64,000 nucleotides of DNA from Corallium rubrum (Eukaryota > Cnidaria > Anthozoa > Scleralcyonacea > Coralliidae). Below the pieces are notes generated by a model that did no database searches, had not been told where the DNA came from, and saw only the letters and a program-made list of their open reading frames with translations. The stretch is taken from NCBI GenBank assembly GCA_964035015.1, contig OZ035998.1, forward strand, positions 34,648,128 through 34,712,127, read 5' to 3'. Both the position numbers and the translations under genes were made by a program. Numbering within the stretch: position 1 is the stretch's first letter; each line of letters begins with the position of its first letter. Shown piece after piece: positions 8,648 to 26,042 of this stretch.

Positions 8648-9242
8648 ACCAGTATTAGGATGAAAGCATCCTGCATAGTCACGGCGAATATTTTTGGCGA
8701 AGTACTGTAAACATTCAATAATTTATGGCCTTTCCGAACATTTTTGACAACAAAAGTTACTGGCAGTTATCCGTATTTACGTTAATGTTGTTTTCTCGGT
8801 GGATTTTTTATTGTTTTTAAATAGTATGTATATTTCTTCAAGTGTTTGTTTCAAACAGTGACTTGTTGTTTATTATTACAAAGTTGTCGCTGGCTTCAAC
8901 AACTTGTCGATTCAGTCCAGCTGAGTTTGGGCCGACCACATGTAGACACCCCTTTGCAGTACGTCATAAAACAAGCTTGAAACATCAAATACTCTGGGCA
9001 ACATACCGTGGCTTCTCTTAAATGCTTCAATTCAATTTACGTTCAATTTTCGCATTTAAGGTTTTGAAGGCCGCGTCGTCGATCTTGAGTCTCCATTGTT
9101 CTTGCGACGTTCGCGGAAAAATTGGAATTTTCCCTTCTTTACAGGGTGCGATATAACTCGAAATTTTCAGCTGTGCTTAACTGGTACTTTAATGAATATT
9201 ACCACGTACTTGAAACTCCAGGCGTACTTGTACTTTTTGTGA

Positions 9243-9266
9243 CTACCGCTGACAGGTCAGCGGTAG
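9243..9266. repeat. Perfect 11-bp-stem hairpin, Helentron 5' region
   Basis: CTACCGCTGAC and its exact complement GTCAGCGGTAG are separated by two bases. Possible 5' subterminal structure or regulatory site of the Helentron. Confidence 0.7.
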
Positions 9267-9500
9267 CCATAATGTCGGCGAAATCTTGCTTGAGTGCTTG
9301 AGTGTCTTGGATCTCACTTACGTCATACTCGACAGCTATCGTCGGATGTCGACAAGATCGCCAGGTATTCGCGAGAAGTGATCGCGTTGTTCGTGGGGGG
9401 CCAGCAGAAGTGAAACCGGTTCGGTCCGGTTGAGCCTCGTGTTTGTTTTCTGACGACTGCTATCTAATAGTGCTCTTGTTGTATCCTCAACGCTGCCTTT

Positions 9501-9525
9501 AAACCTTTCCTTTTCGGAAAGGTTT
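9501..9525. repeat. Perfect 10-bp-stem hairpin, Helentron 5' region
   Basis: AAACCTTTCC, a 5-base loop, then GGAAAGGTTT. It lies 540 bp upstream of the first Helentron start codon. Confidence 0.7.
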
Positions 9526-9724
9526 CTGTCTATTAATTACAAGGTAAGAAGTAGTGTCAAAGCTCTGACGTTTCGTATCGTGCATAAATCTATCTAAATC
9601 GATCTGAATCTGACACAAATCTCCAAGACTCCAACTGAGCTACTTCGCTCCTGTGACATCGGTTTGACTAGGTGTTTGTTTGCTTTTTTAGGTGTTTTTC
9701 AACATCTTGTTTTATTTTATCAAA

Positions 9725-9859
9725 GAAACGAAAGTTTGCGCAGACCCAAGCCAGCGGTCTGACTGAGCGTCAAGTGTTACGCTATCGAGACTTTCTATAG
9801 AACGGAAGTTTTGGGCAGACCCAAGCCAGCGGTCTGACTGAGTGTCAAGGTTACGCTCT
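9725..9859 (+). repeat. 75-bp-period direct repeat upstream of the Helentron ORF
   Basis: The core CAGACCCAAGCCAGCGGTCT followed by GACTGAG(C/T)GTCAAG occurs at 9741 and again at 9816, with flanking similarity for about 60 bp per copy. Paired subterminal repeats of this kind are plausible binding sites for the element's replication protein or promoter elements. This role is inferred. Confidence 0.75.
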
Positions 9860-10063
9860 CTGTCTATTGAAACATTGTTGTGATACTTGTTGTGATACTA
9901 GTTCTATCGAGAAACTATTGAGATTATTGAGAAACTGAAAGCTTGGAATCTGAGTGCTCGTCGTTTGTTCGTCAAATCCACGCGAGAAACACGCGTTTTT
10001 TTGTTATTGCGACTTTTCAAGTGTGACGTCATCTAAACTACTGCAAATTGCCAAAACTTCAAA

Positions 10064-13000
10064 ATGGGCAATACATTAGAGCAATATCGATCGAGAATAG
10101 GCTGTCACAGCATATTTATGGCAAGTATAGATAACGAACGTCGTTTAAAAGGGTCGTTTTGGAATACAATGTTAATGATGTTTTATTTACACGTGTTTTA
10201 CTTGCCAACATTAAAACGTGTCGTTGAGCGATATAAAAGATCGAATGAAGTTATGTCTTGGTTCCATCAAATGATGTGCTATCATGTATATGTATTGCTT
10301 CTAAGACTGTCAAATGACGTAGAAGAAAACCCAGGTCCTTCATCGTATCAAATAATTAATGTATTGGAAACTCTCCGTGCTGATTTTAGTCAAGGAGATC
10401 AGTCGAAGTTCGGTGATAATGCAGGTAAACAATGCGTTGCAATGTCATTAACCGCTGTAATATTCAGATACATCAAACCACATATTGACACCTGGGAGTC
10501 TCCTGATTTAAATAATATTTTGTATCGTGGTAACTGTCTGTATGATTGTATTAAAGGTTCTGTTAAAAAAGACTTCTTGTTGTTGACTGATGTTCCTGCT
10601 ATGGTATCAGTAAATGGGAAAACATATAATTTAACCTATAGTGGGGAATCATTAAGTGGGGAATTATTTATGACAGATAATAACGGGCCTTATATTTCCC
10701 TAAAAAATGCATTTATAGAGATATTTTTTGGAGGAGAAACAAATTATGAGTGTTGCTTGTTAACTATTGATTGTAACACAGTTGCAGTGTTTCACATGTT
10801 GAACAACAGTTATAGAATCTTTGATTCTCACTCAAGGGATATGTGGGGAATGCCAAGTTTTTCTGGAACATGTGTCTTGCTCGTTGTTGATGGCCTTGAA
10901 AACTTAGTTGCATTTTTTCAGGCTACTTCTTATCGAGGAACATGTGTGCCTTTTGAAATGAAAGGTGTTTTGGTCAATGAGGCATGTATTGGTCATAATC
11001 AAAACTTTGAGCAATTAGTAAATAATCAGAATCCTGACGGTAATTGCTACAAAAAAAGAAAGTGTGCTAATGAAAGTAAAGAGATTGGAAAGATTGATGA
11101 GTGTGAAACTAAGAGGAAAAAAATAAAAATTGAAGATCCAAAAACTAGAAATAAGCGATTGCAAGCTAGGCGCATGAATTATTTAAAACGAAAAAATACA
11201 GAAAGTGCTTTAATGAAAGAAAAGAGGCTTCAAAGGTGTCGGGAGTATAAACAGCAAAAGAGAGCAAATGAATCAGATGAGCAGAGACAGAATCGATTGC
11301 AGGCAAAGCACGCAAATAATATAAATAGGAGAGCAAATGAATCTGGTGAGCAGAGACAGAGTCGATTGCAGGCACAGCAAGTAAATGATATTAATAGGAG
11401 AGCAAATGAATCTGATGAACAGAGACAGAATCGATTGCAGGCAAAGCAAGCAAATAATATAAATAGGAGAGCAAATGAATCTGCTCAGCACAAACAGAGC
11501 CGATTGCAAGCACAGCAAGTAAATGATATTAATAGGAGAGCAAATGAATCTGATGAACACAAACATAATAAACTCTCAAAACAACAAGAATGTGATAGAA
11601 GAAGGAAAAAATGTGATGGTGTTTCAATTTCAGATGTTATTCATAGGTTTCACACAGCTGTATCAAAAGGCCCAATATATATTTGTACTTGTTGTGACCA
11701 GTTGTGGTATAGGCATAGTGTTAATTCTGCTGAAAAACTAAAAGTGTCAAACCCCACTATGTCACAATATTTGTTGAATAAAATATCTGTTGATAATATT
11801 GGGTGGATCTGTGGAACATGTGAAAAACATTTAAAAAAGAATAAAATGCCTCCTTTTGCTGTAAAAAATGGGATGGTATTTCCAGAAAAGCCAGAAAGTT
11901 TTGATTTAAATGAGTTAGAGTGGAGACTTGTTGCACCAAGATTAGCTTTTCTAAAACTTATGCAAGCACCGAGGGGTAAACAATTTAAGATAAATGGCAA
12001 CGTTGTCAATGTTCCTGCTGATGTTGTCAATACCATAAATACATTACCAAGACTACCACATGAAACAGGAACAATCAAAGTTCAGTTAAAACGGCAACTG
12101 CAATATAAAAGTTCTGCAATGTCTTTAAATATAAGGCCACATAAAGTCTTTCAGGTAGCATCTTGGCTAGCTACAAATAGTGCACTTTATCGTGAACAAG
12201 GCATTGTTTTTAATGAGCACTGGCACAAAAACTTCCAGGAAAATTTTTATGTATCTGATAATAGAATGGGACATGAAAAAGACGATTTAGATAATGCTAA
12301 AAATAGAGATGACAATCATTTAAATCTTACCAAAAATCATGAAAATTACCAGAATGATGATTGGAGTGAAGATGAGACTGAAATTCCTGCTGGGGTAACT
12401 GACAGTATGTTAACTCCTACAGATTTTCTTGAAGATAGTGAAAGAGAAATAATACATAACATAGCACCAGGTGAAGGTAACAGACCTCAGAGTATATTTC
12501 GAGATAAATATTCTGAAGAACTAGCTTACCCTGGGATATTTCTTGGCCAAAAAAGGCTAGAAAATAAAGAAAGATCAGTCAAAGTATTTTATAGTGACAT
12601 TTGCAAATCAGAATTAAGAAGGTCAGACAGAAGAGCTGCAATGTCTGTAGAGAATATATTCTTTAAGACTAAAAAGCTACAGATGAAAATACTTTTAGGC
12701 AAATCCCAAATTGCATTAAGGAAATCTAAGAGAAGTAACACAGGTTTAACAGCTGGACAGTTAAAGCAACAAGGTAGTTTGGAAAGAATTGTTCATCACG
12801 ATGAAGGTTTCAAATTTTTAAGAGCACTAAGAGGATCACCCCCGTATTTTGAAAAGGCTAAAAAAGATCTCTTTGCAATGATAAGACAATTGGGTCCTGC
12901 AACTTTATTTTGTAGCTTTTCCTCAGCTGAAACAAAATGGTTACATCTCCTTAAAATATTAGGGCAACTTGTTGATCATAAAGATTATACTGATGATGAA

Positions 13001-14077
13001 CTGGAAGAATTAAATTGGGAAGAAAAATGCAGACTCATCCAAAGTGACCCAGTGACTTGTGCAAGACATTTTGATTACCAATTTAATAAATTCTTGAAAG
13101 AATTCTTGATGAGCAACATTGCCCCTTTGGGAAAAATTAGAGACTGGTTCTATAGAGTTGAGTATCAGCAACGAGGTTCACCCCATATTCATATGTTAAT
13201 ATGGCTAGACAATGCTCCAGTATTTGGTGTTGCTAAAGATGATGATGTCACATCTTTTATTGATCAGATAATTACTTGCCATCTACCAAATAATGAGCCT
13301 GACCTAATAAATCTTGTTAATCGACAAACACATAGACATTCACATACTTGTCAAAAAAATTCAAAAAAAGAATGTAGATTTAATTATCCTCAACCACCAA
13401 TGAAGTCAACTAAAATACTTTATCCACTAGATGATAATGTTTCTCAAAGTGATGTTAGAAAACTAAACATTTTGTGGAAAAACATAAAGCAGCAACTAAA
13501 TGACATGAAAGAAGGTGAAAATATCACATTTGATCAGTTATTAGCTGATAGACTGAAGGTCCCTGAACATGACTATATGCTTGCAATTCGATCATCTCTC
13601 AACTGTCCCACAATCTTTTTAAAAAGAAATCCCAATGAACTCAGAATAAACAATTATAACTCTGCATGTCTGAGTGCCTGGAGAGCAAACATGGACATTC
13701 AATTTGTTCTTGACGTGTATGCATGTGCAATGTATATTGTTTCATATATATCCAAGGCACAAAAGGGAATGAGTGAACTACTTCGTACTGCATGTGCTGA
13801 AGCAAGAGAAGGAAATGCAAGTATTAAGCAGCAAGTGAGAGATATCGGTAATAAATTTTTAAACAGTGTTGAAATTAGTGCCCAAGAAGCTGTGTACATA
13901 ATTCTGCAATTACCAATGAGAAAATCATCAAGAGAAGTTGTTTTCGTACCGACCTCATCACCTAATGAAAGAGTTCAGTTGTTTAAACCACTAAGTGAAA
14001 TTGAAAAAATGCCAGATGAATGTGAAGAAATACATTTTGGTGGACTCTTAAAGAGATACACTGAACGACCTGCTTAG
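10064..14077 (+). CDS. Helentron ORF1: 2A, C76-like peptidase, STPR repeats, HUH replication initiator
   Basis: A 1337-codon frame. In order: residues 1-91 leader with a hydrophobic stretch ending in a 2A motif NDVEENPGP (84-92). Residues ~107-290 a papain-fold peptidase-like domain with GKQC (C124), a preceding Gln (Q113) and a DSH triplet (D254, H256), the layout of the C76 deubiquitinase family. Residues 380-517 six 23-residue repeats. Residues ~537-720 a Cys-rich DUF6570-like region (C541, C543, C544, C583, C586). Residues ~990-1235 the rolling-circle initiator with HIH (1041-1043) and the two tyrosines Y1224 and Y1228 before K1231. The initiator would nick DNA and bind the 5' end covalently through Tyr. 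The Met at 10064 is the first in the frame. The frame stops where Helitrons normally continue into the helicase, so the stop at 14075-14077 reflects a frame break. Confidence 0.93.
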   Translation: MGNTLEQYRSRIGCHSIFMASIDNERRLKGSFWNTMLMMFYLHVFYLPTLKRVVERYKRSNEVMSWFHQMMCYHVYVLLLRLSNDVEENPGPSSYQIINVLETLRADFSQGDQSKFGDNAGKQCVAMSLTAVIFRYIKPHIDTWESPDLNNILYRGNCLYDCIKGSVKKDFLLLTDVPAMVSVNGKTYNLTYSGESLSGELFMTDNNGPYISLKNAFIEIFFGGETNYECCLLTIDCNTVAVFHMLNNSYRIFDSHSRDMWGMPSFSGTCVLLVVDGLENLVAFFQATSYRGTCVPFEMKGVLVNEACIGHNQNFEQLVNNQNPDGNCYKKRKCANESKEIGKIDECETKRKKIKIEDPKTRNKRLQARRMNYLKRKNTESALMKEKRLQRCREYKQQKRANESDEQRQNRLQAKHANNINRRANESGEQRQSRLQAQQVNDINRRANESDEQRQNRLQAKQANNINRRANESAQHKQSRLQAQQVNDINRRANESDEHKHNKLSKQQECDRRRKKCDGVSISDVIHRFHTAVSKGPIYICTCCDQLWYRHSVNSAEKLKVSNPTMSQYLLNKISVDNIGWICGTCEKHLKKNKMPPFAVKNGMVFPEKPESFDLNELEWRLVAPRLAFLKLMQAPRGKQFKINGNVVNVPADVVNTINTLPRLPHETGTIKVQLKRQLQYKSSAMSLNIRPHKVFQVASWLATNSALYREQGIVFNEHWHKNFQENFYVSDNRMGHEKDDLDNAKNRDDNHLNLTKNHENYQNDDWSEDETEIPAGVTDSMLTPTDFLEDSEREIIHNIAPGEGNRPQSIFRDKYSEELAYPGIFLGQKRLENKERSVKVFYSDICKSELRRSDRRAAMSVENIFFKTKKLQMKILLGKSQIALRKSKRSNTGLTAGQLKQQGSLERIVHHDEGFKFLRALRGSPPYFEKAKKDLFAMIRQLGPATLFCSFSSAETKWLHLLKILGQLVDHKDYTDDELEELNWEEKCRLIQSDPVTCARHFDYQFNKFLKEFLMSNIAPLGKIRDWFYRVEYQQRGSPHIHMLIWLDNAPVFGVAKDDDVTSFIDQIITCHLPNNEPDLINLVNRQTHRHSHTCQKNSKKECRFNYPQPPMKSTKILYPLDDNVSQSDVRKLNILWKNIKQQLNDMKEGENITFDQLLADRLKVPEHDYMLAIRSSLNCPTIFLKRNPNELRINNYNSACLSAWRANMDIQFVLDVYACAMYIVSYISKAQKGMSELLRTACAEAREGNASIKQQVRDIGNKFLNSVEISAQEAVYIILQLPMRKSSREVVFVPTSSPNERVQLFKPLSEIEKMPDECEEIHFGGLLKRYTERPA
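10283..10339 (+). other. 2A-type ribosome-skipping motif
   Basis: Codons 74-92 of Helentron ORF1 encode YHVYVLLLRLSNDVEENPGP, with a Leu-rich stretch followed by the D-V-E-x-N-P-G|P signature. In known 2A peptides the ribosome fails to join Gly to Pro, so two products come from one frame. Here the break would fall at codons 91/92 (10334-10339), freeing the peptidase-led polyprotein from a 91-residue leader. Activity is inferred from the motif, and every residue of the core consensus is present. Confidence 0.85.
11201..11614 (+). repeat. Six STPR-type 23-residue (69-bp) repeats
   Basis: Units begin at codons 380, 403, 426, 449, 472 and 495, exactly 23 codons apart, with the pattern ESDEQRQNRLQAKxANNINRRAN. 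This period and composition match the STPR (score-and-three peptide repeat) DNA-binding module. Units 2 and 4, and units 3 and 5, resemble each other most, so a 138-bp pair was duplicated. The outer units are more diverged. Confidence 0.85.
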
Positions 14078-16854
14078 CAGACTGGGCAGCATGGTATGAT
14101 AGTGTTAATAACAAATCATATCAAAAGAAAACAACAAAACCAGACATTGATGATCTGCCATTAGAAACATCAGATAATGATGACAATAATGATGATGAAC
14201 TTTGTGATGACACCAACACAATTAATAAGTCCAAAAAATCTAATAAAAATAGTGAACCAAAAAAACGAACAAAAGCCAGAATCATAAGGTGTGCCTGGTT
14301 TAATAAAGAAGCCTACCCAGAGAAGCACTATCGAGAATTAATTATGCTTTTTACACCATGGAGGAATGAGGAAAGTGATTTAATTGGTAATTATTCATCT
14401 TATGAAGAACATTATTTAACTTTACAAGACTCAATAAAAGATCAAATGAGCCTCTATGCAGTTTGTAATGAAGAACTAAATAGTGCCCAAGAACAGTTAA
14501 ATTCGGCTTTTGACAATGATGAAGACCAGTTTGATTTAATTGCACCAGTAACTCAAGATGCTGAACACCAAGATGAAGATGAAGGCGCTATAGATTTACA
14601 TCCTGACTTGAATGAAAACTATGATCTGTCACACGACATTGGCATTCCTTCAGCATCATCAAATAATGAACCACTTATTCTAAATGAAATGCCAGCTGAT
14701 GAATATAGAGAAATGGTGCAAATGTTAAATAAAGAACAAAAGGAATTTTTCTATCATACTCTTCACCTAATAAAGACATCAGACAAACCATTTTACTCAT
14801 TTCTTAGTGGAGGTGGAGGTGTTGGTAAATCACATCTTACAAAATCAATCTATCAAGTAGCATTGAAATACTATAATACCAGGGCCGGTGATGATTTCAG
14901 TCAAGTTAATGTTTTACTTCTAGCTCCTACAGGAAAAGCTGCATTTATCATTCGAGGCAATACAATACACAGTGCTCTTGCAGTACCTGCATGTCAGTCC
15001 TTAAGAAATTATAAACCACTTGACTCTAACAGATTAAACACTTTAAGGTGTCAACTAGGAAGTGTAAAACTGATATTACTAGATGAAATATCTATGGTTG
15101 GAAACAGTATGTTTAATGTTCAAATAAATAATCGACTAAAAGACATTAAAGGTAGCAAGGAAGATTTTGGTGGTGTGAACATAATTGCAATTGGTGATTT
15201 GTTTCAATTAAAACCAGTCATGGATGGTTTTATATTCAAAGATTTTGATAACTCGGAATACGGTGTTCTTACTCCAAATTTATGGAAACAACACTTCCGA
15301 ATGGTTGAACTACATGAAATAATGCGACAAAGAGAGAGTAAAGCATTTGCAGAAACTTTGAATAGATTAAGAGAAGGAAATCATACTGAAAATGACATTT
15401 TGAAGATTAAACAAAGAATACTTCCAGAACAAAACTGTCCAAAACAAGCACCTCATTTATTTATACAAAACTTGAATGTTGATGAATTTAACGACAAAGT
15501 TTATAAAGCAGCAATTGGGGCAAAATACACAATAAAAGCTCACGACAGTGTCATAGGTGCTAATTCTGCAGAACTTAGAGACAAAATAATGAAGCAAATT
15601 CCAAATGACCCAAGAAAAACTAAACAGCTTGCTTCAAAGCTCCAGATTGCTGAAGGTGAAAGAACTGAAATTGCCATAAATGTAAGAACTGATGATGGTT
15701 TGACAAATGGTGCCCGTAATATTGTTAAATTAGTACAGTTACATCAACCTGGAAAACCTTCAGGTATAATATGGGTAGAGTTTGATCAACAAGAAGTTGG
15801 TAAGAAAACAAGACATGAAAACAGGCAGCTTTATCGACAAAATAATATTCAAAGTACATGGACGCCAATTAAACCAGTCACAACACAATTCGCTGTTGGT
15901 AGAAATAGAACGGCTCAAGTTGTCAGAAAGCAATTTCCACTGCGACTTGCTGCTGCTAAGACTGTACATAGATCTCAAGGTGATACTCAAACTGAAATTG
16001 TTGTCAACCTTAACACTCGAAGAGCAATTCCCCACATACATTACGTTGCATTGAGCCGAGTAACTACGATTGAAGGACTGTATGTCACTGACCTTTGTGA
16101 AGACAAAATTTCTGTTGATCCTAAAGTTGTAAGTGAAATGGAAGAGTTGAGAACAGAAAGAAGCCTCCAACTTTGTATCTCTCCATTGTATAAAATAAAT
16201 GACAATTCAGTTTTGAAATTGTGTTATTTAAATGTGCGTTCACTCCATAAACACATTGAAGATGTCCGTAAAGATTTTAATTATCTCTCTAGCGATATAG
16301 GAGTATTTACAGAGACAAGATTCAATCCGATAGAGCCAAATGAAATGTACACCATTGATGGTTTTGAGTTATTTCGTAATGACAGTCACTCTTGTGTAAA
16401 CAATGGACGACCCTATTACGGTACAGCGGTATATAGCAGAGTGCCATTAGTCGCTGGTTATCCTTACAGCCACAACATTAATTCTATAGAATTCACAATG
16501 ATCAAAGTAACAAGTCATCCAAACTTGACAATCGTTGCCGTATATCGTTCACCAAAAGTTCCTATTAGTCAACTGTGTTCAGCATTGAGAGAAATTGTTC
16601 TTGAAGTTGCTGGTGATGAAAGTGTAATAATTGGAGACTTCAATGTAAACTGGCTCAGTGAAACTGATGGAAGACCTCTCTACAATGTGTTGGTAAGGGA
16701 CAATAGCTATGTACAATTAATATCAAACTACACAACAGATAATAAAACTCTCATCGATCATATATTCTCTAAAACCACTTCTCAAAATGTAAATTCAGGG
16801 ATTTTAGAAACCTATTTTAGTGATCATAAAACAATTTGGGTATCATTCAAATGA
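14065..16854 (+). CDS. Helentron ORF2: PIF1-type helicase plus AP endonuclease
   Basis: This frame is open from 14065; the first Met is at 14344. The piece before that Met starts LADWAAWYDS, the conserved RepHel sequence that should directly follow ORF1's RYTERP, so the two frames are one broken gene. Counting from the Met at 14344: Walker A GGGGVGKSHL (156-165), Walker B LILLDEIS (243-250), GDLFQLKP (284-291), TVHRSQGDT (540-548) and YVALSRVT (567-574), all PIF1-family motifs. Residues ~625-836 form an endonuclease/exonuclease/phosphatase domain with N630, E657, YRSP (734-737), GDFN (764-767), D805-H806 and SDH (826-828), so its catalytic set looks complete. This C-terminal endonuclease marks the element as a Helentron rather than a canonical Helitron. 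It stops at 16852-16854. Confidence 0.95.
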   Translation, partial: TTCLADWAAWYDSVNNKSYQKKTTKPDIDDLPLETSDNDDNNDDELCDDTNTINKSKKSNKNSEPKKRTKARIIRCAWFNKEAYPEKHYRELIMLFTPWRNEESDLIGNYSSYEEHYLTLQDSIKDQMSLYAVCNEELNSAQEQLNSAFDNDEDQFDLIAPVTQDAEHQDEDEGAIDLHPDLNENYDLSHDIGIPSASSNNEPLILNEMPADEYREMVQMLNKEQKEFFYHTLHLIKTSDKPFYSFLSGGGGVGKSHLTKSIYQVALKYYNTRAGDDFSQVNVLLLAPTGKAAFIIRGNTIHSALAVPACQSLRNYKPLDSNRLNTLRCQLGSVKLILLDEISMVGNSMFNVQINNRLKDIKGSKEDFGGVNIIAIGDLFQLKPVMDGFIFKDFDNSEYGVLTPNLWKQHFRMVELHEIMRQRESKAFAETLNRLREGNHTENDILKIKQRILPEQNCPKQAPHLFIQNLNVDEFNDKVYKAAIGAKYTIKAHDSVIGANSAELRDKIMKQIPNDPRKTKQLASKLQIAEGERTEIAINVRTDDGLTNGARNIVKLVQLHQPGKPSGIIWVEFDQQEVGKKTRHENRQLYRQNNIQSTWTPIKPVTTQFAVGRNRTAQVVRKQFPLRLAAAKTVHRSQGDTQTEIVVNLNTRRAIPHIHYVALSRVTTIEGLYVTDLCEDKISVDPKVVSEMEELRTERSLQLCISPLYKINDNSVLKLCYLNVRSLHKHIEDVRKDFNYLSSDIGVFTETRFNPIEPNEMYTIDGFELFRNDSHSCVNNGRPYYGTAVYSRVPLVAGYPYSHNINSIEFTMIKVTSHPNLTIVAVYRSPKVPISQLCSALREIVLEVAGDESVIIGDFNVNWLSETDGRPLYNVLVRDNSYVQLISNYTTDNKTLIDHIFSKTTSQNVNSGILETYFSDHKTIWVSFK

Positions 16855-17172
16855 AGAGCAGACAAATAAATATAATATTGCTATCTATATAATGTATTTA
16901 GAGACACAAATGCAAATAAAATATGTATTACAAATAACCTTTTTATAATGATCATTAATAGTTCTAAACTGGCATTTACAAGAAAAACTAAGAGCAGAAT
17001 TTTTTAAAAAGGACACTTTAAAGTGCATAAAGTATATAATACAGCATTAAAGATGCAATTGATCAAACATGTTCTTTTGTAATTATCAAAAATTATGAAT
17101 TTAATATTATGAATAAAAATGATTAATTTTTCAAAATAAACAAATAAGTGCTACAAATTACATTGTGAATGC
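16855..17172. other. Helentron 3' untranslated region
   Basis: AT-rich, no ORF. Contains the palindrome CACTTTAAAGTG at 17012-17023. Confidence 0.5.
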
Positions 17173-17220
17173 TCCCATGCAATATGGGAACAACTTCACA
17201 TGAAGTAATTTTATTACTTC
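17173..17220. repeat. Cluster of three hairpins at the Helentron 3' side
   Basis: TCCCAT/ATGGGA (17173-17189), ACTTCA/TGAAGT (17193-17206) and GAAGTAAT/ATTACTTC (17202-17220) follow one another and partly compete. Helitron-type transposons carry a hairpin near the 3' end that acts in termination, so the element probably ends shortly after this cluster. Confidence 0.65.
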
Positions 17221-17299
17221 AACAAAAGCAGGGGCAACAGACCCACACCACGATTGGACATACTATATAGCAGGTAAGTTATTTTTTTTCTAATTTACT

Positions 17300-18886
17300 C
17301 TGATTACTTACATGTAACTAGTCTAGTCAAGTTTTAAGTGTTATTTCCAACTGTTAATTAAAGACTTTGTCTTTTTATTTTTTTATAGAAATTGACCAGT
17401 ACAAGTCTCAAATTGTCAATTGCCAAAAAAATGTTATTCCACTTACTGACAAAAGTATATGGTACTTCTTCCAAATTCTATACATGACATTTTCACCATT
17501 CAAGTCCATTAAAGTCTGGCTACTGTAGCAGATGTTATGATGCAAAATCAGAATATTGCAACACTTTTACAAGAGACATTATTTCAAGACTTTTTCCCTT
17601 GATATTAATTCTTCAGCATTATAATGGTAAAGGATAAAGCATTGAGGATAAAGGACTTGGGGCTAATTATCTTTACTTACAGCCAGTGGCTGAATTGCGA
17701 AGGATGCAGATCAATGTGGCAGTGTTGAGGTGCCATTGTATGACACACTTCAGATCACGAATCACAGCGAAGATGTAGGTGTTGATACAGTATACATCAT
17801 GTTTGGATATAGATAATCATGAAGAAACATTGTTTAATCACCATGATGTCACCACAATTTTCCTGTTATGGAACATATTGCAAGTTCCAAACTGAATATA
17901 CAGAAAGATGCACATATCCTGATCAATATTTATTGATATACTATAACTGTACACCTTTTAATGGATCAAGAATGCAAAAATTCTATGGCTGGTGGAAACT
18001 TTATTATCAACAAATATTCTCCATTAATTGTTATTTACTCTCAATCCAAAATATGAATTTTACAAGCTCACTTCATGCAAACTGTTCAAGCTGTATATTA
18101 CTAACAGTATATGATGCAAAGATTTCGATTCAGCCAGTAAAGAATGAAATTGAAGAACATTATTGTAGCTAGTTCTTTATTGCTGTGGACTTAAATTTTG
18201 TGATGTATGCTTTGTCTTTGTGTGTTTGCATTTTTGAACACAAATGATAAAATAGCTAGGCTATGTTCAGCTAAAAGAACAAATTGACAAGTTTGACTAT
18301 TCTAGTTCTCAAAATAATTAAGGTCCATGTTTTACACTCATGTTCAATGCACAGATGTGTAGTATGTACTATGTTGAAATGAACAAGATAAGACACATTT
18401 GTAAATTAAAAGAACTATCAATTGATTTCTGTCAGTATCTGTTTGCATTTTACTCATTTTCATGCTTTTCGTCTTTACAGCTAAACTGGGTGTTCGTTTC
18501 CGCACAACCTTGTTCTGACTTTCAATACAACTTCATATTATGTGAAGTTCGATATTTAAAATGCGAATTTTTAGCAACTTGCCAAGGAGTCGCTGTGTAT
18601 CGTTAGCTAGTAAACATTGCAATGTTGCTGTCAATATTGCAAGGTCGCATGGAAACGAATACCCGGTTTGGCTGTAATAGTCTCCTTTATATCTGTTTCT
18701 GTGTAAAAAGCGGTAGTCACATGTACGCTTTGCGTACCTATTTTTAAGTACAGCATCGCGAATATTCCTTGAAATGTAAATCATTGAAATACATTGATAA
18801 AGTGTAATACAACAGTAATGTAATATGTTTTTCACTCCTGCACTAAAGCTATAGTATTGAATCTATCCAGCTACTTTGCAGACTAT
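17300..18886. other. Intron sequence without recognisable features
   Basis: AT-rich. A 117-codon ORF at 17819-18172 shows no family resemblance and is probably fortuitous. Confidence 0.5.
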
Positions 18887-19413
18887 GCTTTATAAAATAA
18901 CTTGTATACTACGCGAACCCTGATTCGTCAGTTGCCGTGTTTGGATCAGAGTATCCAAACACGGAAAATTCCCGCCAAAACGATTTTTTGAAAATGTTGG
19001 ACAGTATATCATATTCACTTGTGATTATTTTATAAAAGAAATACCAAATGTTTTTTGCCGTGTTTGGAGACTCTTAAGCTGGATTTCCATTCAGTGCATT
19101 TTGTCGCGCGATCGACTTTTCTCGATAGCTTTCTTTTGAAATGTGTGTATTCAACCAAAGCTAATGAAATGCGTTCCGCTTGACAACCCACAATTCAAAA
19201 GAAAGTGATCGCAAAAAGTCGATCGCGCGATAAAATGCACTGAATGGAAATCCACCTTTATCCAAACACTTGGGAAATTGCTCGACTTTCGAAAAGCTCA
19301 AAACACTCGCCTACGGCTCGTGTTTTGTTACGCTTTTCTCCAGTCTCGCAATTTCCCCGCGTGTTTGGATCAGAATATCCAAACGCGGAAAACCATTTGG
19401 TATTTCTTTAATC
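18887..19413 (+). repeat. Dispersed repeat, copy 1 (filled by a MITE)
   Basis: Outside the insertion at 19077-19257 this copy is about 93-95% identical to 30222-30563. Both contain pairs of the form CCGTGTTTGGATC...GTATCCAAACACGG that can form hairpins. Confidence 0.85.
19077..19257. mobile_element. 181-bp MITE with TTA target duplication (PIF/Harbinger type)
   Basis: The terminal inverted repeats start AGCTGGATTTCCATTCAGTG and end with the complement (one mismatch), over ~44 bp. TTA flanks both ends (19074-19076, 19258-19260). The related repeat at 30222-30563 lacks the insert and has a single TTA at the same point, so the boundaries are exact. A 3-bp TWA duplication is the PIF/Harbinger signature. 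No coding capacity. Confidence 0.93.
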
Positions 19414-23619: not shown

Positions 23620-23662
23620 ACCCAAAGCCATAAACATCCTTTGAGTGTTTATGGCTTTGGGT
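23620..23662. repeat. Perfect 17-bp-stem hairpin next to the LINE
   Basis: ACCCAAAGCCATAAACA and its exact complement enclose a 9-bp loop. It lies directly before the 5' end of the LINE coding sequence and may mark the insertion junction. Confidence 0.8.
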
Positions 23663-23667
23663 TAGAC

Positions 23668-26042
23668 CCCATCGCCTCCCAAGATCTATCACAGGGATTC
23701 TTGTAGGTGTTGTATACAGCCCTCCCGATACACCTGCTTTAGATCAGCTCAACTTGATCTGTTATCTCACGGAGAATTTGGACATTATTCGCAACGAGTC
23801 TCCCGATTGCGGTTTAGTACTTCTTGGTCTGAACAGTCATAACTTATTTCAAGCAGTTAACGAACCAACCAGAAACTCTGCCATTTTAGACCTAATTATC
23901 ACTAACATGCAAACTTATTACAATAAACCAGCCATCCTTGCCCCAATTGGAACTTCGGATCACAATGTGGTAAAATGGTTACCTTGCTGTAATAATATTT
24001 GCACTACGCGCCTTAACAATAAGTGGCAACTGCGCCGTTTCCCTCGATCTGAACGCGACGCTTTTGGCCGCTGGTTGACGTTACAAGATTGGTCCTCTAA
24101 TGACTCAAATCTGGCTTCGGTTGAAGATTTATCCATGTCCTTTACTTCAAAGATCTCCCAAGCTATTGACGACTTCTTCCCTCTACGATCGATCAAATTA
24201 CATCATTCGGATAAACAGTGGATTACGGCATCTATTAAAAAACTAATATCAGAGCGCCAACAGGCATACCATAGTGGCAACAGTCATCTTTGGCGACATT
24301 ATAGGAACAAAGTGAAATCAGAAATAATTTCGAGGAAGAAGAAATTTTATTCTGAGAAAGTACAACATCTCAAGAAAACGGACTCCAGAAAGTGGTGGAA
24401 ATATGTAAACCACATCTCGGGCAGATCTAGTGCCTCCTATTCCTCACCTTTTGTTCTTGAAAAGAATGGTATTATTATGTCACCTGATGAACTCGTTAAT
24501 TCGTTGAATAATTTCTTCGTTTCCGTCAATGCTGATATTCCGGCTTTTGATCTATCCAATTTGCCATCTTTTTTACCATCTTCTGATCAAATACCAGCAA
24601 TTTATCCTTACCAAGTCTGAGAAATTACTCAAGCTTAACCCGCATAAGGCGATTGGCCCGGATAAATTACCCCCGCGCATTTTCAAGGATTTTGCTTATG
24701 AATTGGCTGAGCCTATTACTGATATTTTCAACATTTCGTTGAATACTGGCGTCGTTCCAACGATTTGGAAAGCTGCTGATATAATACCAATTCCAAAAGA
24801 GTCACCACCAAAAATTGAAACGATCTCCGCCCGATATCGTTGACGTCCTGTCTATCGAAAGTGCTTGAAGAATTTGTTGCTACCTGGATGCTGGAGGATA
24901 TTCAAAGTAAAATAGATCCCCGCCAATTTGGCTGTTTAAAGGGCACTTCAACTTCAATGTGTCTGCTGGATATTTTCCATAGATGCTTGTCTAGTTTAGA
25001 CAAGCCTGGAAACACCTTACGAATATGTCTTTTGGACTTCAGCAAAGCTTTTGACAGGATTAATCTAAACATTCTCGTCGTGAAACTAATTGATTTGGGG
25101 GTTCGTAGATCCATATTGCCGTGGATTTGCAGCTTCCTTTCAAATAGAAAACAACGAGTGAAGTTGGGGGAGTCTATATCTGAATGGGCCGACGTCAATG
25201 CTGGGGTGCCCCAAGGTACAAAATTAGGCCCAATTTTGTTCTTGGTCATGGTTAATGACCTTGTGCCTCCAATTTGCCAACACTGGAAGTATGTGGACGA
25301 TGTAACAATTTTGGAAGTGATGCCCAGACATGGCCAGTCTATCATACAATCTGATTTGGATCACATTGCTGCGTGGTCTACCTCCAACTATATGAAGCTT
25401 AATCCCAAGAAATGCAAGGAGCTGAGAGTATGTTTTTTACGTAATCCACCTTCGTTGTCTCAATTAGTAATTGACAGTACCCCCGTGGAAGTCGTGGAAT
25501 GCCATAAAGTTCTTGGTGTGCAAATTCAGAATAATCTGAAATGGCGCAATCACGTCGACGCCATCACCAAAAAAGCTGCTAAACGCCTTTATATCCTTCG
25601 TATTTTGCGCCACAGTGCAGGTGTACCACCAAGAGATTTGATAACCATCTATATTGCCTTGATACAATCGATTTTGGAATATGCATGCGCGGTATGGCAT
25701 AGCAGTTTACCATCATTTTTGGCTGATAAAATCGAACAGATCCAAAGGAGAGCACTGCACATAATTTATCCACATATGTCCTATAGAGAAGCTCTTGTTG
25801 CGTCTGGTTGCCCACGACTAATAGATAACAGACAACGTCTATGTTTAAACCTCTTCAATAAAATAAGAAGGAACAGCACTTCACAACTAGCCAGTTTTAT
25901 CCCCAAAACGAGGTCAAGTGCGCATGGTCGACATTTGCGCAGTAATAACAATCTTTCCCTTTATCGGTGTAATACGGAACGATTTAAGCGTAGTTTCTTT
26001 CCTTCGATGATAAGCTATTTCAATCAAATACATAATCCATAA
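23668..26042 (+). pseudogene. CR1/Jockey-type LINE, 5'-truncated, two frameshifts
   Basis: Contains the last part of an endonuclease domain (from VGVVYSPPDTP; EPTRNSAILDLIITN; TSDHNVV), a linker, then a complete-looking reverse transcriptase: NPHKAIGPDKLPPRIFK, RPISLTSCLSKVLEEFV, LDFSKAFDRI, AGVPQGTKLGPILF and the catalytic KYVDD near 25290, followed by the thumb and C-terminal region (EYACAVWHSSLP). The frame changes near 24618 and again near 24825. The endonuclease GDFN motif reads GLNS. The element is therefore dead. Frame segments are 23754-24620, 24529-24843 and 24840-26042. The missing 5' half is typical of incomplete target-primed reverse transcription. Confidence 0.92.

Follow-up and report, generated by a model that had tools for sequence, protein, structure and literature searches.

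We analysed a 64,000-nucleotide stretch of the Corallium rubrum genome (assembly GCA_964035015.1, contig OZ035998.1, positions 34,648,128 to 34,712,127 of the forward strand; hereafter the window), which holds a Helentron, a rolling-circle transposon, present here as a decayed copy of an abundant family. This family and four others in the same genome carry a 2A (StopGo) motif at a fixed place, directly before a deubiquitinase-type domain. Judged from the sequences, the likeliest role of 2A is to free a leader peptide co-translationally from a protein that continues as deubiquitinase, Rep, helicase and endonuclease. We are fairly confident of this account as a whole, that is, of a decayed Helentron with a 2A-freed leader and a deubiquitinase-bearing transposition protein. 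Only tentatively do we extend it to the wider proposal that skipping at 2A has been conserved as a functional feature across a large group of rolling-circle transposons, where it would yield a leader, directed to membranes in several families, together with a nuclear deubiquitinase-transposase, and where 2A would be the joint through which Helentron lineages exchange leaders and deubiquitinases of different origin.

The encoded modules, all on the + strand, are in order the leader, 2A, VTD, STPR, DUF6570, HUH Rep, PIF1 helicase and AP-type endonuclease. An earlier note, made from the sequence alone, had listed the seven modules from 2A onward in this order; all are present, and six pass the Pfam cut-offs in the window frames. 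The type I leader (10064..10336), counted from the first ATG and with the 2A up to the Gly of NPG, is 91 residues long. The 2A motif DVEENPGP (10316..10339) lies in frame, with its predicted break between Gly and Pro at 10336/10337; a search of the window showed no other DxExNPGP-type 2A. The VTD (10337..11005; Pfam Herpes_teg_N/VTD, E 1.7e-9), previously termed a C76-like peptidase, is of the tegument-like deubiquitinase type (peptidase family C76), and has its active-site Cys in KQCVAM and its Asp-x-His in FDSHSR. The STPR array of 23-residue basic repeats, in 69-nt tandem units (11174..11580, outer limits by eye), matches PF21107 (2e-10, best stretch 11282-11503); TRF finds a period of 69 with 4.3 copies beneath it (11260-11556), and the array resembles the FMBP-1 structure 5d23 (E 1.9e-4). 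The DUF6570 module (11837..12214; PF20209, 5.5e-18), noted before as a mere likeness, is a genuine member of that family; it aligns across families A, B and C and has Cys-x2-Cys pairs that look zinc-binding by eye. The Rep domain (12818..13756; PF14214, Helitron_like_N, 6.3e-24) keeps its HUH motif (PHIHM, 13181-13195) and its YIVSY motif (13733-13747) intact, as had been claimed. Next come the PIF1 helicase (Pfam stretch 14722..15390; PF05970, 2.3e-23; Walker A 14809-14835) and the endonuclease (16228..16827; PF03372, Exo_endo_phos, 4e-9), the latter with TET, GDFN (16633) and SDH (16819) motifs.

2A skipping is known in RNA viruses and, among animals, in some retrotransposons and immune genes. 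The family of the window copy (family A) has at least 27 copies including this one, with 93-100% identity over the helicase part; sister-copy comparisons use 20 of the other 26, and all family and copy comparisons were made within the C. rubrum genome. D[VI]EENPGP is intact in 18 of the 19 sister copies that cover the site; the exceptions among the 20 are L010, with a stop inside the motif, and L015, where the region is absent. Sister copies are closely related, so the more distant families carry more weight. In four of these (B-E), with Rep identity from 80% down to 33%, 2A again lies directly before a VTD or an OTU domain. Family A has leader I, 2A, VTD and STPR. Family B (L029, L031), whose Rep shares 74-77% identity with that of A, differs in its leader, carries SGDIELNPGP as its 2A and has an OTU protease where A has the VTD. 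Family C (L030) carries a tandem duplication (895-1035) of the 2A segment and the first VTD residues, in which the first copy reads NLGP, having lost the first Pro of NPGP, and the second, NDIEKNPGP, is intact and is followed by the VTD and nine STPR stretches. Family D (L041, continued by L043) has NDVETNPGP, VTD and STPR. In family E (L037-L040, with L042 continuing L039) [RK]DIEKNPGP precedes the VTD, followed by a second VTD-like stretch that by eye is without the Asp-x-His motif; downstream come basic repeats, DUF6570, Rep and PIF1, then an endonuclease match that misses the cut-off (0.016), and the Rep of the one copy compared (L042) is 31-35% identical to those of other families. STPR proper (PF21107) is found in A, C and D, and VTD and OTU substitute for each other at one site directly after 2A. 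A chance fusion in the window copy, which had been raised as a possibility with homologues then lacking the N-terminal modules, is ruled out: the family is multi-copy, and copies and families retain the module order.

Genome-wide, the pattern D(V/I)ExNPGP gives 504 matches and its reversal none, so the pattern is not chance; type I leader matches number 165. The family searches scored the best 150 of 195 (VTD), 215 (OTU) and 480 (Rep) candidates genome-wide, and 2A places were listed for C1:1-71,616,493 (100 places), to which the following counts among scored candidates refer. A 2A lies 52-112 nt upstream on the same strand at 24 of 26 VTD matches and 12 of 20 OTU matches, where coincidence is expected at ~2e-4 per place; at 13 of 21 Rep matches a 2A lies 2.0-3.0 kb upstream. 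Of the 64 other listed 2A places, 12 carry a type I leader, two (31538404 and 56393210) precede a Rep match, and one is a decayed family B copy (L036). Five near-identical sites among the 100 are represented by L034, whose 98-residue frame (151-444) has the 2A AVDIETNPGP and, further on, a TKPNQ repeat.

The modules are under purifying selection. Between L011 (family A) and L030 (family C), the ratio of nonsynonymous to synonymous substitution (dN/dS), imprecise here with dS at 1.2 or more, is 0.39 in the leader, 0.19 in the VTD, 0.28 in STPR, 0.15 in DUF6570 and 0.09 in Rep. Between B1 and B2 it is 0.67 in the leader, 0.31 in OTU and 0.12 in Rep, with 0.10 in 2A.

Several observations weigh against the account given at the outset. 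For 2A alone, where the ratios rest on 17-18 codons, the A versus C value is 0.49 (18 codons), no lower than that of the leader, in an alignment where the family A motif stands opposite the defunct NLGP copy of family C. Matches within one family are not independent observations. Eight of the 21 Rep matches have no 2A within 8 kb upstream, and 2A is not universal among these elements. No Helentron tie was found for 49 of the 100 listed 2A places, so 2A may not be Helentron-specific in this genome. The basic repeats of B and E match no STPR model at E 0.1. The leader of the window copy is weakly hydrophobic, with a best 19-residue mean of 1.19 (1.2-1.3 in its family). The control, the best stretch in the remainder of the protein, is at 1.53 in the window copy, above its leader, and at 1.26-1.65 in other families; the family B leader is not hydrophobic, at most 0.73.

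The ratio on the 2A codons, no lower than the leader's between A and C, is what one would expect if 2A were a relic, brought in by a captured leader and now unable to skip, with a single fused protein as the product. We consider this improbable in view of the fixed place of D(V/I)ExNPGP in five families whose Reps have diverged so far, of the doubled family C, which keeps one of its two 2As intact, and of the 504 to 0 pattern count.

The 49 places without a Helentron tie bear on another possibility, namely that Helentrons took over the leader-2A cassette from a non-LTR retrotransposon, as has been proposed for the endonuclease, and that in this genome 2A belongs mainly to retrotransposons. 2A reportedly occurs in non-LTR elements. 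In L035, a frame ~1.8 kb after leader-2A resembles by eye the endonuclease end of a retrotransposon, and a CR1 origin is argued for the Helentron endonuclease in the part of PMC4067079 available to us. Yet among the few places read we saw no retrotransposon with leader I or II, and at the three leader-I loci outside complete elements (L032, L033, L035) leader-2A runs straight into a truncated VTD. We regard such a capture as possible but rather unlikely. The three loci (L032 1-3001, L033 1-2501, L035 1-2501) are short elements reduced to leader I, 2A and the start of the VTD. L032 and L033 also have a downstream frame in common, and nine leader-search matches have equal score and the same 171-residue frame; such elements therefore look like deletion derivatives that spread.

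The partners on either side of 2A appear to have been exchanged. Leader II is common to B, with OTU, and E, with VTD, and leader I accompanies the VTD in A, C and D. The ratio of the A-E to the A-C distance is 6.2 (4.7-8.5) for Rep, 3.3 (2.4-5.0) for DUF6570 and 1.5 (1.2-1.9) for the VTD; the low VTD ratio is as expected if the VTD moved between lineages after the Reps split, while a conserved VTD core, a point on the other side, could also compress it. Small Rep and DUF6570 trees are unrooted, with most splits weak; the Rep tree places E next to B1 on a long branch, probably as an artefact. Exchange within family A is suggested by L022 and L011, between which dS is 0.2-0.4 over most of the N-terminal half, 0.09 in the VTD and the stretch before Rep, and 0.02-0.06 from Rep onward, a contrast that points to recombination.

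The earlier note had further suggested that the element may process its own polyprotein, with the peptidase cutting it into Rep, helicase and endonuclease pieces. A polyprotein that carries a peptidase invites this idea, and subunit cleavage is given as one possible role for Helentron OTU proteases in the portion of PMC4067079 seen. We find it very improbable. The VTD is homologous to C76 in sequence and fold, its catalytic residues C33, D163 and H165 are invariant in nine aligned proteins, and a structure predicted from nine sequences (pLDDT 73; a prediction from four sequences, pLDDT 42, was discarded) has a fold and Asp-x-His active site that match deubiquitinases. Zebrafish Helentron VTDs are reported to be active on ubiquitin in the part of PMC9741609 at hand, and the interchange of VTD and OTU at one place fits a common ubiquitin activity better than a common cut site. 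Ubiquitin cleavage is the activity we would predict for the window VTD.

With 2A as the separating device, the products would be made as follows. Where relatives have kept an open frame, it runs uninterrupted through leader, 2A, deubiquitinase-type domain, basic repeats, DUF6570, Rep, PIF1 and endonuclease. As the nascent 2A peptide emerges, the ribosome would skip one peptide bond and release the leader, and the second protein would begin with the Pro directly before the deubiquitinase. This second protein would be the transposition machinery: as known from related families, the HUH Rep would nick and join and PIF1 unwind, the endonuclease may help to open the T-run target, and STPR and DUF6570 may bind nucleic acid. 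The STPR of FMBP-1 binds double-stranded DNA. The N-terminal deubiquitinase could strip ubiquitin from the transposase or from host partners. Separation may also let the remainder enter the nucleus, since the leader is strongly hydrophobic in some relatives (L032, L033, L035 and three E copies, with 19-residue means of 2.4-3.1; best means in C and D are 1.4-1.5), although for the window family this step is weakly founded. It is likely that the leader is targeted to membranes in some families; in that of the window this is uncertain or unlikely. A conserved 2A fixed before a deubiquitinase-type domain suggests that these elements need the leader to be separated and the deubiquitinase to be free. 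Two questions thereby become testable, namely what deubiquitinases do for Helentrons and by what means an element with one frame yields several proteins, and the differing partners on either side of the joint would exemplify modular evolution in mobile DNA.

The identification as a Helentron, made in the earlier note, holds, but the element is longer than the 10064-16854 given there. The whole copy, ~9.5 kb, spans 9234..18745 (+), with sharp ends common to copies with differing flanks: sister-copy ends match 9234 and 18745, and ten copies with both ends are 9598-9684 nt long with different flanks. L020 and L021 have flanks in common and are probably allelic or duplicated. The 5' end (9234..9265) has T5 and the 12-nt subterminal inverted repeat GTGACTACCGCT (9239-9250) with its own nested inverted repeat; the 3' end (18709..18745) has the subterminal inverted repeat AGCGGTAGTCAC (18709-18720), the hairpin GTACGC-TTT-GCGTAC (18723-18737) and T5. 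The subterminal repeats pair perfectly (12/12 nt, where at least 11 bp is typical of Helentrons) and the hairpin stem is 6 bp. The HUH Rep is fused to PIF1 (PF14214 and PF05970, in two frames in the window and one in L011), and the AP-type endonuclease is C-terminal. For the target, the joined flanks of L023 gave six full-length matches among 16 (paralogous empty sites); the three compared are identical over 70 nt and carry a T7 run, and the filled site is flanked by T5 and T7. Insertion therefore occurred in a T-run, in which the exact nick cannot be placed, and this T-rich target shows no large duplication. For the window copy, the joined-flank search gave only its own two flanks and one weak match.

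The open frames of the window copy run from 10037 to 14077 and from 14065 to 16854, overlapping at 14065..14077 (+). There are two of them because ~19 nt are deleted in this copy alone: the stretch 13980-14159 is 180 nt here and 199 nt in the compared copies (201 in L015), all 20 being longer by 19-21 nt. This private deletion rules out a programmed frameshift. A single reading unit is thus absent from the window copy; it exists in four of the 20 copies (L011, L013, L016, L022), where 2A to endonuclease form one frame of 2204-2259 aa, and in the remaining 16 frames are broken or a part is absent. In the 3' 1.9 kb no conserved extra gene was seen in eight copies, only frames of 80-119 residues.

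STPR extends beyond the 2A-bearing families. On C1:1-71.6 Mb, eight of 15 STPR rows follow a 2A within 3 kb and seven do not (15 of 19 listed rows, the other four lying at places already counted), which rules out STPR as a marker of the VTD type, and at least three Rep matches there have STPR without 2A. A second abundant STPR and Rep group has frames of ~700-890 residues (C23:14384837, C15:15666094, C32:9676241 and similar); no 2A lies upstream at the three C1 places with STPR and Rep that were examined, and the group is probably a different Helitron-type element with STPR.

Two further repeats lie downstream in the window. Just beyond the Helentron 3' end, palindromic repeats at 18932-19412 (79-nt arms, 87% complementary, units like TTTGGATCAGAGTATCCAAA) look like a small non-autonomous inverted-repeat element. 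A broken non-LTR retrotransposon at 23634-26042 (+) has a reverse transcriptase (PF00078, 1.2e-25) at 24819-26039, preceded by a frame with no Pfam match at E 0.01.

How much of this is new? The earlier note took the combination of modules to be undescribed. As regards the VTD this does not stand, since VTD in Helentrons is already published; for 2A and its fixed place we found no record in print. The element might still belong with the published VTD Helentrons and be present in a repeat library already, its 2A having gone unremarked or been reported elsewhere. VTD Helentrons in cnidarians are described in the accessible part of PMC9741609, and that of PMC4067079 includes a drawing of a Nematostella Helentron whose protease is OTU-like. 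Against this, literature searches for 2A with Helitron, rolling-circle or transposon gave no relevant match among the entries listed (although Odon 2013 or Rao 2025 may mention Helitrons), nor did STPR with Helitron or transposon, nor DUF6570; the available text of PMC9741609 names neither STPR nor 2A peptide, NPGP or skipping, and that of PMC12846837 (PNAS 2026, on StopGo diversity) does not name helitrons and has retrotransposons only in a reference title. We consider it rather unlikely that nothing here is new. Relatives sought in viral contigs (152 pattern stretches) and prokaryote genomes (590) were not confirmed by tblastn in any case.

The comparison with known systems, each cited paper being represented by the parts available to us, is as follows. 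Like the Helentrons of Thomas et al. 2014 (PMC4067079), this element has a Rep-helicase with C-terminal AP endonuclease (there with an OTU protease in some), subterminal inverted repeats with a nested 5' repeat, a 3' hairpin and a T-rich target; the 2A leader and STPR array are not mentioned in those parts, and the distance from the 3' subterminal repeat to the end is 25 nt here, shorter than the 38-60 nt of the mite elements. The zebrafish Helentrons DrT1 and DrT2 (PMC9741609) likewise have a VTD of the same fold and active site in the Helentron protein, and DrT1 has two VTDs, as by eye family E apparently does; unlike in the pages seen for them, VTD or OTU here occupies one site directly after a 2A, alongside STPR. 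The FMBP-1 STPR (5d23) shares the 23-residue basic repeats of PF21107, but here they lie within a transposon protein and vary in number between families. The 2A of non-LTR retrotransposons and that of sea-urchin NLR proteins (Roulston 2016, PMC4981915) are likewise N-terminal and of the form DxExNPGP, and the NLR one can also act as a targeting signal. In contrast to the 2A of non-LTR retrotransposons and NLRs, the one described here belongs to a rolling-circle DNA transposon and is fixed before a deubiquitinase-type domain.
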